A stretch of DNA of 64,000 nucleotides from Shewanella polaris (GTDB taxonomy: Bacteria > Pseudomonadota > Gammaproteobacteria > Enterobacterales > Shewanellaceae). Positions 47,532 to 54,441 of the stretch are shown one piece after another. The DNA is taken from the NCBI RefSeq assembly GCF_006385555.1, contig NZ_CP041036.1, positions 930,001 through 994,000 on the forward strand. Direction: 5' to 3'. The number at the start of each line of letters is the position of its first letter. Position 1 is the first letter of the stretch. The notes under the pieces were generated by a model. The model saw only the letters and a program-made list of their open reading frames with translations. It did not search any database and had not been told where the DNA came from. Made by a program: the position numbers and the translations under genes.

Positions 47532-48410
47532 CTATTCCATTGCTCCAAATCCAGATATGACATCGAACAATTCCGCATCGATACCACTTTGACGTAAGCT
47601 GTGAAATTTTTGCTTAAGACTTGCATGCAGTTCATCGATATTTTTTTCTGCCCGCTGCATTGCAGACAAGCGACTGGCATTTTCACTGTTAAGTGATTCA
47701 GCACAAGCCCTAAACAGACTGACAAATAGATATTCACGCATCATAGCGCTTAGTGTTTCAGACCGCTCGGGCATAACTTCGGGTAAGTTATTAGTTGGCC
47801 ATTGAATACTTGCAAAGTTTTGACTCCAGTGAGCATCTAGGGGTAAAAGTTGTTGGCTCACAGGAGTATAAATTGAATCGACATTTGGGCGATGATGAAA
47901 AATATACACCCGATCGATTGTCCCTTTCTCTCTTTGCGCTTCCATTTCAATCAAAATTGTACCGACTAGCGTTGAAATGACATCAACTGAATTTGGCAAT
48001 ATAAAACCTTGCTTTAGCACAAGTTTGGTTTCTAAAAGCCTTGACTGAAGACGATCTCCCACAGTCCAGACCAATTTATTCCCCGGCATTTTCTGCAATG
48101 ACTCACAGACAAATTCGACCATTACTTCGTTAAATTGACCGACTAAACCCTGATCGGTTCCAAATACTATGACGCCAATGGCTGCTTTATTTGACGGTGG
48201 CCTTTTTGTTTTAATACTAGGGGATTGATATTGCTGGAAACAGGCGGCTAAGCCAAGTTGCACAGTACGATAATAATCATCTAATGAGTGAACTGCATTT
48301 TCGTATTGGCAGATATTAGATGACGCCATTGCCTTCATGCTGCGCACGACAGACTCAAGATCATCAGCACTGTTAATCTGATGACGCAGACTTGCGAGGC
48401 CTTCACTCAT
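47532..48410 (-). CDS. atpG: N-ATPase gamma subunit
   Basis: A 292-residue central-stalk subunit of a rotary ATPase. The N-terminal helix has the family pattern SLRHQINSADDLESVVRSMK, the middle IGVIVFGTDQGLVGQFNE, and the C-terminus ASRLSAMQRAEKNIDEL. It turns inside the alpha3beta3 head and links it to the c ring. It overlaps atpA by four bases and is last in the operon, as in other N-ATPases. It is more divergent than housekeeping AtpG. Confidence 0.92.
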   Translation of the reverse strand: MSEGLASLRHQINSADDLESVVRSMKAMASSNICQYENAVHSLDDYYRTVQLGLAACFQQYQSPSIKTKRPPSNKAAIGVIVFGTDQGLVGQFNEVMVEFVCESLQKMPGNKLVWTVGDRLQSRLLETKLVLKQGFILPNSVDVISTLVGTILIEMEAQREKGTIDRVYIFHHRPNVDSIYTPVSQQLLPLDAHWSQNFASIQWPTNNLPEVMPERSETLSAMMREYLFVSLFRACAESLNSENASRLSAMQRAEKNIDELHASLKQKFHSLRQSGIDAELFDVISGFGAME

Positions 48411-49960
48411 ACTATTTCCTCTGCTTTCTGGCTGGACATAAATTGTGCTAATGCATTATGGACAGACTGGATAATGGCGTCTCTATCTTCTGCTGTTAAT
48501 TCTTCAGATGTCTCTAAACGAGTGATTATTTCAGCTGGAAAATCGGCAGCAGCATTGCGAACTGCCAACTCGGCTTCACTCATTAGTGTCAACGGTATGT
48601 CATCAAATAGATTGGCCGTTAATGCCAGCAAGACCGCAATTTGTTCAACCATAGAAATTGGCGTGGATTCAGCTTGCTTTAGGCAAGCGCGAATACGTCG
48701 ACCGTGGCCGATTGTTTTTAATGTGTTGTCATCTAATCGAGCGCCAAAACTCGAAAATGTTTCCAGCTCTTCAAACTGCGCATAAGCCAATTTTAGGTTT
48801 GATGCAACGGACCGATAAGCAGCTCGTTGTGCCTTACCCCCAACACGAGAAACAGATTTCCCTACGTTGATAGCAGGCAGCACGCCCAGTTCAAATAACG
48901 AGGGTGAAAGATAGATCTGCCCATCGGTGATAGAAATGAGATTCGTAGGAATATAGGCTGATATATCCTGTGCTTCAGTTTCAATAATGGGCAGCGCCGT
49001 TAATGAACCACCACCTTGTTCTTGACTTAAGTGAGTAGCCCGCTCCAATAAACGCGAGTGAATATAAAATATATCACCTGGAAAAGCTTCACGTCCTGGA
49101 GGGCGACGCAACAGCAGTGACAGCTCGCGGTAAGTGCGTGCGTGGTGTGTTAAGTCATCATAAACAATTAATACGTCGCGTCCTTGCTGCATAAAATATT
49201 CGGCAATACTGGTCGCTGCATAAGGGGCAATATAAGCAAGGCCTGGAGGATCATTACCTTCGGTAACCACTACCACGGTATATTCCATAGCGCCTTGTTT
49301 TTCTAATGTGGCAATGACTTTGGCAACACCAGATGTACGTTGGCCAATAGCACAATATACGCAAAGTACATTTTTGCCACGTTGGTTCAGTATGGTGTCA
49401 AGGGCAATAGCCGTTTTACCAGTTTGTCTATCGCCGATAATCAACTCTCGTTGGCCACGCCCCACCGGAATAAGGGCGTCAATTACTTTGATACCTGTTT
49501 GCAAGGGAACACTCACCGCCGCACGATTCATAATTGCAGGCGATGGACGTTCAACGGGGAGGCGGGTACTTGATAGCAATCGGCCTTTGCCATCTAAGGG
49601 TTCTCCGATAGGATTGATAATACGGCCTATTAGGCCGTCTCCTACGGGAACATCCACTATATGCCCACAACGTTCTACTTCATCACCGGCTTGTAAATGC
49701 CAATACTCTCCCAATAGTACAACCCCAATTTCATTTTCATTCACATTGAATGCAATGCCAAAAATATCACCAGGGAACTTAAGCACTTCTTCAAAACCGA
49801 CTTTTGGCAAGCCAGATACGATTGCAATACCAGTGGCAATACTGGTAATTATGCCGACTTCTCGCGGTTGCAATAGGGGTGAAAAAGATTGCCGCGCTTG
49901 TTGCAGAGTCGAAAATGTTTGCTCAAATATTGATTGTAAGAAATCAGGCGCTGGTTTCAT
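48407..49960 (-). CDS. atpA: N-ATPase alpha subunit
   Basis: A 517-residue nucleotide-binding subunit. It has the P-loop GDRQTGKTAIALDT near 169 and the alpha-type segment ISITDGQIYLSPSLF, with the arginine-finger region VGGKAQ. Alpha sites are regulatory in F1. It overlaps the end of atpF by 17 bases. Length and motifs are full, so the head should be functional. Confidence 0.95.
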   Translation of the reverse strand: MKPAPDFLQSIFEQTFSTLQQARQSFSPLLQPREVGIITSIATGIAIVSGLPKVGFEEVLKFPGDIFGIAFNVNENEIGVVLLGEYWHLQAGDEVERCGHIVDVPVGDGLIGRIINPIGEPLDGKGRLLSSTRLPVERPSPAIMNRAAVSVPLQTGIKVIDALIPVGRGQRELIIGDRQTGKTAIALDTILNQRGKNVLCVYCAIGQRTSGVAKVIATLEKQGAMEYTVVVVTEGNDPPGLAYIAPYAATSIAEYFMQQGRDVLIVYDDLTHHARTYRELSLLLRRPPGREAFPGDIFYIHSRLLERATHLSQEQGGGSLTALPIIETEAQDISAYIPTNLISITDGQIYLSPSLFELGVLPAINVGKSVSRVGGKAQRAAYRSVASNLKLAYAQFEELETFSSFGARLDDNTLKTIGHGRRIRACLKQAESTPISMVEQIAVLLALTANLFDDIPLTLMSEAELAVRNAAADFPAEIITRLETSEELTAEDRDAIIQSVHNALAQFMSSQKAEEIV

Positions 49961-52988: not shown

Positions 52989-52989
52989 G

Positions 52990-54441
52990 TTACGTACCTT
53001 GTTTGTCCGTTTGCTTATCTACAGTTGGCTGTGCGTTTATTTTCTCAAGCTTAGGGTTTATGGCTTCATCAATTGAGCCAATCATATACAGAGCACTTTC
53101 TGGATAGTCTTTAAATTCATCGAGTAGAATTCGTTCGCAGCCATCTAATGCTTCACTAAGACTTACCAATTTCCCTGGCATACTTGTGAACTGTTCTGTG
53201 GTAAAAAAAGGTTGAGTAAAAAAACGTTCAAGGCGACGAGCGCGTGCCACAATTTTATGATCTGCTGCCGATAGCTGTTCCATACCTAACATGGCGATAA
53301 TGTCTTTAAGTTCTTCATATTGTGCCAACGTGCTGCGTATTTTCTGCGCCAAGTCGTAGTGGCGTTGACCGATAATACTCGGAGTGGCCATTTTAGAATT
53401 AGATTGCAACGGATCAATGGCTGGGTAAAGTCCTTCACTGGCCCGTTTCCGCGATAGCACAATTGATGCCGATAGATGTGAAAAAGTATGCACCGCAGCG
53501 GGATCGGTAAAGTCGTCTGCCGGCACGTATACCGCTTGAATGGAAGTAATCGCACCCGTATCAGTATTGGCAATACGATCTTCGAGTTGTGACAATTCAG
53601 TACCTAAGGTTGGCTGGTACCCCAAGCGTGCTGGCATTTGGCCCATTAAACCAGACACTTCCATACCCGCCTGAATAAAACGAAAAATATTATCAATCAG
53701 TAACAACACATCACGATGTTCATCGTCACGAAAATATTCGGCCATGGTTAATGCGGCATGACCCACACGAAAGCGTGCTCCAGGTGGCTCATTCATTTGT
53801 CCGAATACCATTACCATATTATCCAATACGCCTGCTGCTTTCATCTCTCGGTAGAGTTCTTCACCTTCTCGACAACGCTCACCAATACCGCAAAAAATAC
53901 TCACCCCAGCATGCTGGCCTACCATATTGTGGATCATTTCGGTCAGTAACACCGTTTTGCCCACTCCGGCACCGCCAAAAAGTCCAGCCTTACCACCACG
54001 TTCAAGAGGCATTAATACATCAATTACTTTGATACCGGATTCGAATACTTCGGATTTAGTTGCAAGCTGGTCGATTGCTGGCGGTTCGTTATGTACAGAA
54101 CGCCACTGGGTATCTATTGGTGGTGGTTTATGATCAATGGTGTTGCCAAAAACATCAAACATCCGCGATATAATTGTCTTACCCACAGGTGCCAATAGTG
54201 GTCCGCCGCTGTCATCTACCACCATGCCTCTAGCCAGCCCTTGGGTTGGTGTCAGCGCAATGCAGCGCACTCGATGTTCATCTAGTTGCGAAAAAACTTC
54301 GAGAAAAACTTGTCCCTTTTCTCCGGTAGTTAATAAAGTTCGAATAGGCGGGAGTTGCTGAGCAAATAGAATATCGACAACACTACCGCGTATCGCTATA
54401 ACTGTACCTGAATTGGGTGAGGCATTTTTTCTATCCATCAT
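52990..54441 (-). CDS. atpD: N-ATPase beta subunit (catalytic)
   Basis: A 483-residue catalytic subunit, first gene of the operon. It has the P-loop [12 protein letters not shown], catalytic Glu in [13 protein letters not shown], and the [10 protein letters not shown] segment. The lever normally DELSEED reads EQLSAAD here, so the link to the rotor is less acidic. I chose ATG 54441 with a GGAGA upstream; a frame from 54480 lacks a ribosome site. First place for beta is the N-ATPase order. Confidence 0.94.

Follow-up and report, generated by a model that had tools for sequence, protein, structure and literature searches.

Shewanella polaris carries, on the minus strand of the 64,000-nucleotide stretch analysed here (NZ_CP041036.1, positions 930,001 to 994,000; hereafter the window), an array of nine intact open reading frames (ORFs), atpDCQRBEFAG, at positions 47532-54480. 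These genes encode a complete N-ATPase, a good but ordinary member of a family that is already well described, reportedly by Dibrova et al. in 2010. The operon combines N-ATPase gene content and intact motifs with a place in the N-ATPase clade, a position in an accessory slot and a subunit c that has every Na+ ligand. It is quite probable that the rotary F-type ATPase which it encodes, in addition to the housekeeping H+ synthase, exports Na+ at the cost of ATP, and was acquired by an ancestor of the S. frigidimarina group.

The curated cut-offs of the NCBIfam "alternate F1F0" models were exceeded by seven of the proteins, while AtpQ and AtpR exceeded those of their own models. The minus-strand array begins with atpD (52990-54480; beta subunit, 496 aa; TIGR03305, 870 bits, cut-off 752), followed by atpC (52578-52988; epsilon subunit, 136 aa; over cut-off for NF004871 and TIGR03166, the latter with 148 bits, cut-off 100) and atpQ (52210-52575; a small membrane protein of the ATPase_gene1 kind, 121 aa; PF09527 and TIGR02230, 133 bits, cut-off 47). 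The gene atpR (51822-52268) encodes the N-ATPase-specific membrane subunit, with 148 aa when read from a GTG (PF12966 at 1.5e-26; TIGR03165, 86.5 bits, cut-off 55.5), and is the sole PF12966 match in the genome. Next come atpB (51085-51825; subunit a, 246 aa; TIGR03306, 366 bits, cut-off 302), atpE (50772-51053; subunit c, 93 aa, with a two-carboxylate Na+ site by alignment to 3zk1; TIGR03322, 159 bits, cut-off 131), atpF (49944-50768; subunit b with a C-terminal delta/OSCP-like domain, 274 aa; TIGR03321, 286 bits, cut-off 225), atpA (48407-49960; alpha subunit, 517 aa; TIGR03324, 885 bits, cut-off 750) and atpG (47532-48410; gamma subunit, 292 aa; TIGR03323, 398 bits, cut-off 282). The first-pass annotation, made from the letters of the window, had described nine minus-strand genes in the N-ATPase order with the accessory atpQ and atpR, and both statements hold, as all frames are open and the PF12966 and PF09527 proteins both sit between the epsilon and a genes.

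The translations also bear out its claim that every catalytic motif is intact: GGAGVGKT and GIGER in beta, GDRQTGKT and SRVGG in alpha, RLFGN in subunit a and E63 in subunit c. We take these to be a P-loop in each of beta and alpha, the glutamate of beta, the arginines of alpha and of subunit a, and the glutamate of c. The order and extent of the operon were annotated correctly, except that the atpD ORF opens at 54480, and the upper limit given, 54441, is an inner in-frame ATG; both ATGs are kept in the two Shewanella relatives, and either may be the start. For atpR, the GTG start at 52268 overlaps atpQ by 59 bases and the family match begins only at residue 46. An in-frame ATG at 52166 is common to all three Shewanella copies, and translation from there gives a 114-aa protein that keeps a family score of 87.4 bits, so the true start is probably this ATG and the atpQ-atpR spacing probably 43 bases. 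The remaining junctions are overlaps of 4, 17 and 4 bases and gaps of 3, 31, 2 and 1 bases. The description of all junctions as overlapping or a few bases apart thus fits all but two.

The housekeeping synthase and the N-ATPase family

The genome is a single contig of 4,648,537 bases, estimated to be 100% complete, and a separate housekeeping atp operon, with the order I-B-E-F-H-A-G-D-C and its own delta gene, lies at 4.628-4.635 Mb (delta and gamma were named by family match, the other ORFs from their place and by reading their N-termini). The search for another atp operon, which had been suggested as a check, therefore supports calling the N-ATPase a second rotary ATPase. Seven ATP-synthase alpha/beta-domain matches are present genome-wide: two in this operon, two in the housekeeping pair at 4.629-4.632 Mb, two in FliI-family proteins and one in Rho. 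The subunit c, delta/OSCP and gamma families have two matches each, one per operon, the two PF00213 (delta/OSCP) matches being the housekeeping delta and AtpF. By reading, the housekeeping c subunit is of the single-Asp proton kind and lacks the Na+ ligand set.

Candidates for further F1-type ATPases at 1.01 and 3.17 Mb were rejected as FliI-family, and one at 0.506 Mb as Rho; the 1.01-Mb protein scored 605 bits, under the FliI_clade1 cut-off of 619 and over the FliI/YscN cut-off. The two FliI-family flagellar export ATPases (C1:1011432 and C1:3169542), one of which is located about 17 kb past the end of the window, suggest two flagellar systems.

According to PMC4154653, the N-ATPase hallmarks are the order beta-epsilon-Q-R-a-c-b-alpha-gamma, the presence of atpR, the lack of a delta gene and occurrence beside a main synthase, as well as a b subunit prolonged at its C terminus by over 100 residues. 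Relatives were taken as the best 80 AtpD-encoding loci from contigs of other genomes. All nine genes occur in the same order in 63 of these, which excludes a chance arrangement, a shorter part occurs in 16, and atpD follows atpG in one. The last is L092, a Gallionella metagenome-assembled genome (MAG) with the order C-Q-R-B-E-F-A-G-D. Fourteen of the 16 shorter loci end no more than 131 bases from the end of the fetched stretch. The others, L083 and L084, show AtpD alone or D-C-Q-R-B alone, though the stretch runs on for 2.7 and 8.3 kb, and are possibly partial operons.

A tree of concatenated AtpD and AtpA was built from 68 rows, comprising the window, the 65 of the 80 loci in which both proteins were near full length and two housekeeping Shewanella rows; it was a quick search over these N-ATPase and housekeeping rows, and its supports are Shimodaira-Hasegawa-like approximate likelihood ratio test (SH-aLRT) values. 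The N-ATPase clade (66 rows) is split from the housekeeping rows with a support of 100. The three Shewanella copies group together (100), nested in a set of 12 rows (98) that is made up mainly of marine gammaproteobacteria and includes Rheinheimera, Marinomonas, Thalassolituus and Aestuariibacter, and the closest rows outside the genus are an Opitutaceae MAG, Rheinheimera and Marinomonas. Hence, in the tree check that had been proposed, both proteins group with N-ATPases and not with the housekeeping Shewanella enzyme.

The stalk subunit and the ion site

The absence of a delta gene had also been noted, and no separate one is present; however, delta is not simply lost, as AtpF ends in a delta/OSCP-like domain. 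Besides PF00430 (b), AtpF matches PF00213 with 31.1 bits (cut-off 22.3), and its 274 residues compare with a median of 271.5 in 70 complete relatives. A scan of 65 family AtpF proteins took in that of the window and 64 of 73 identified relatives, leaving aside truncated sequences and the majority of the overlong ones; PF00213 was matched at an E-value of 0.001 in 34 and unmatched in 31. Overlong AtpF proteins of 325-422 aa are found at L040, L057, L059, L080 and L111.

The AtpF model, which was predicted from a 65-row alignment (mean predicted local distance difference test score 82.6, predicted template modelling score 0.42), consists of a 138-residue helix, two short helices (145-158 and 162-174) and a beta-alpha-beta-beta-beta-alpha domain at 179-257. 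The N-terminal domain of delta is a six-helix bundle; the model has the two short helices ahead of the beta domain, and the PF00213 match covers residues 86-244. The top PDB matches in a fold search are OSCP/delta chains (best E-value 6e-4; two of 632 at or below 0.001), and the same search also lists V-ATPase chains at ranks 7, 11 and 16 and the Pyrococcus stalk subunit E at rank 29. The longer b subunit of N-ATPases was likened to subunit E in PMC5706428 and described as fused with delta in PMC11738941, and the modelled fold is compatible with both.

The alignment of subunit c with that of Fusobacterium (3zk1) has one single-residue gap, which lies some way ahead of the first carboxylate. 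At the site, the columns are GEGYA...AESTGIY in the window and AEGKA...IESTAIY in 3zk1, with E30, E63, S64, T65 and Y68 of the former opposite E32, E65, S66, T67 and Y70 of the latter. The Na+ ligands of 3zk1 were reported as E32, the V63 oxygen, E65, S66 and a water held on T67 (PMC3692424); all have counterparts in the window protein, where M61 would supply the backbone oxygen.

In a set of 74 family c subunits (the window and 73 of the 80 best loci), the first carboxylate is Glu in 73 and Gln in one, the subunit of L113 being the only one with Gln for Glu in the first helix. The T67-equivalent is Thr in 49 and Val, Ile, Leu or Met in 25. On the tree, whose 66 N-ATPase rows divide into 43 with Thr and 23 without, this residue takes at least 10 changes, and its state therefore flips often; a separate subunit c protein search (8000 candidates scored, the 120 nearest listed) was not used for this question. 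Because subunit c has the complete Fusobacterium two-carboxylate Na+ site, unlike the proton-coupled Burkholderia N-ATPase, Na+ export is the best prediction for the operon.

Insertion site and history

The N-ATPase beta cut-off was passed in three of 129 Shewanella genomes, namely this one and two that match S. frigidimarina KCTC 23109 and Shewanella sp. SG41-4. In the window, the operon is flanked by an NCS2-family (xanthine/uracil) permease gene at 55106-56461 (PF00860) and an RhlE-like helicase gene at 45781-47082, whose best match is PRK10590 rhlE with 518 bits, under the cut-off of 743. Genus tables for the permease and the helicase (each covering 125 genomes, of which 92 and 124 gave matches), read by eye, place the two close together in six genomes. 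Three of these carry the N-ATPase, with about 4.6 kb extra before the helicase in SG41-4. In the three without the operon (G089, G071 and G122), blastn homology to the window stops at 55046-55057, just past the permease terminator, and resumes at 47400-47442, which places the inserted segment at approximately 47436-55046.

The gap is filled differently in each of these relatives: by a Sel1-repeat protein in G089, a spermidine-synthase-domain protein with a weak PADLOC match to mad2 in G071, and a reverse transcriptase fused to a trypsin-like protease in G122 (L123:8891-10717; PADLOC RT-Protease_XI, 594 bits), which by eye adjoins an IS110-type transposase-like piece. This different cargo marks an accessory site, into which the operon was inserted or at which it was replaced by something else. 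That this permease-rhlE gap serves in the S. frigidimarina group as a cargo slot, where the N-ATPase alternates with an RT-protease defence gene and other accessory genes and is kept, as a salinity- or starvation-dependent Na+ exporter, under balancing gain and loss, is a tentative proposal that we would not yet favour.

At the upstream edge of the insert, a terminator-like hairpin follows the permease gene on the minus strand (55060-55084; 10 pairs, 7 of them GC, and a T tail), matching by consensus only, in a region with 11 such sites against 7.5 (standard deviation 2.9) in shuffles. Rfam at gathering scores and ARAGORN gave no hits on the window; thus, no tRNA lies beside the insert. Direct repeats were searched in each flank separately, and not between the flanks, with none in one and two 11-base pairs of a chance kind in the other. 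As well, an FtsH-family protease gene (56960-58840), which passes the FtsH family model and not PRK10733, adjoins the permease; it is present in SG41-4 and not in the fetched stretches of S. frigidimarina (G031), G089, G071 and G122.

The age of the operon was compared with that of the genome using window ORFs of about 150 aa or more that matched, at an identity of 60% or more over 80% or more of their length, in four fetched G031 stretches, which gave five operon ORFs (four shorter operon genes fall outside the set) and 32 background ORFs. Per gene, fourfold-site divergence is 0.41-0.71 in the operon and 0.21-0.39 in the permease, rhlE and purT genes. A recent transfer, considered on this difference, was rejected when the gap vanished against the 32 background ORFs (pooled divergence 0.468 in the operon against 0.456, one-sided rank test p 0.63), which leaves the flanks as the unusually similar part. 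Median protein identity is 84.6% for the operon and 90.1% for the background (one-sided p 0.03). GC content is 0.39-0.45 in the operon genes and 0.42-0.46 in four flanking genes, and GC was discarded as a sign of foreign origin, neither GC nor GC at third codon positions giving a foreign signal. The operon thus looks as old in the lineage as the rest of the genome, with an arrival before the split from S. frigidimarina. Gain by transfer, first annotated as probable, is supported by the tree neighbours outside the genus and the patchy distribution, whereas a recent arrival finds no support in divergence or composition.

Function, alternatives and related systems

Two NqrA loci (C1:761523 and C1:3529299) are over the cut-off, so that respiration probably already drives a Na+ pump in the host, and an ATP-driven pump would serve when respiration stops or falls short. 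In the mechanism proposed, ATP hydrolysis by alpha3-beta3 would rotate gamma-epsilon and the c ring, possibly a large one (that of Burkholderia has 17 subunits), and Na+ would leave to the outside through subunit a. The b subunits would hold the top of F1 via the fused delta-like domain, and AtpR and AtpQ probably assist ring assembly. The operon may have come to the S. frigidimarina-group ancestor from marine gammaproteobacteria or their relatives, with later loss in some lineages.

Several observations weigh against this account. A call of the ion from sequence has failed once in the family, as the Burkholderia N-ATPase ring was predicted to bind Na+ and measured to be predominantly H+-selective (PMC5376962). 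A promoter scan found 19 sites against 20.9 in shuffles, with no excess. The operon tree places G031 and G097 together with the window outside, and the housekeeping-atp tree agrees, yet the permease, rhlE and purT tree pairs the window with G031 (support 100/100), so the surroundings of the slot may have recombined. Vertical descent, moreover, takes a single gain followed by two losses on the housekeeping tree, where the distribution could otherwise be reached by three gains.

Coupling to protons, which would make the enzyme an additional H+ pump serving the homeostasis of pH or membrane potential, gains from the Burkholderia result, obtained despite two glutamates, from the 25 family c subunits without Thr at the T67 position, and from the ProAD predictions of 893 H+ against 914 Na+ N-ATPases (PMC11738941); some N-ATPases without the whole ligand set were also described as apparently proton-translocating (PMC5706428). 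However, the window protein holds every ligand including T65, a complete motif is called Na+ by the ProAD rule and missing ligands H+ (PMC11738941), and Na+ is the ion moved by the N-ATPase of Aphanothece (cited in PMC5376962 and PMC8949462), so that we regard proton coupling as rather unlikely. The intact catalytic motifs and the sodium-motive force implied by the NqrA loci would also suit an enzyme working chiefly as an ATP synthase, and a large c ring, if formed, favours synthesis at low force. Such a role is unlikely beside the housekeeping synthase and with pumping presumed to be the main function of the family (PMC11738941). A decaying or silent relic of transfer might be suspected from the patchy distribution, the protein identity below background and the promoter signal at chance level; this is very improbable, as nine frames and all motifs have stayed intact despite genome-level synonymous divergence, and AtpD and AtpE remain 91% and 92.5% identical to the S. 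frigidimarina copy, which indicates purifying selection.

An ATP-driven Na+ exporter thus stays the preferred reading, and the operon is intact, complete and predicted to be Na+-coupled in a genus with culturable members, whose near relatives lack it at the same site. Carriers and non-carriers at one site offer a convenient natural comparison for the cellular role of N-ATPases. A literature look-up for N-ATPase, Shewanella and sodium returned a single paper, on Nitrospirales, which is no proof of absence in print. Neither novel ion classes nor a novel b-delta fusion could be claimed, since the Na+/H+ residue classes and the fusion are already reported for the family in ProAD (PMC11738941); the operon is a clean test case and no discovery.

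Compared with the N-ATPase family, the S. polaris operon agrees in gene order, atpR, the absent delta gene, the long b and the second synthase, and nothing was found to set it apart, although it is rare within the genus. The Fusobacterium nucleatum c ring has the same Glu, Glu, Ser, Thr and Tyr set in the same columns; its enzyme, however, is an F1Fo ATP synthase and not an N-ATPase (PMC3692424). The mycobacterial b-delta fusion likewise joins b to a delta-like domain in a single polypeptide, but at about 445 residues it is much longer than AtpF, in which the one clearly recognisable part of delta is its C-terminal beta domain. Similar to the window, the Burkholderia pseudomallei N-ATPase, with its c17 ring, has a nine-gene operon and a two-carboxylate site (E30, E61 and Tyr66), while its glutamate is followed by Thr62-Met63 instead of Ser64-Thr65 (in that paper's residue numbering), leaving it without the water-holding hydroxyl (PMC5376962). 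This contrast at the T67 position with a proton-coupled ring makes the ion question directly testable.

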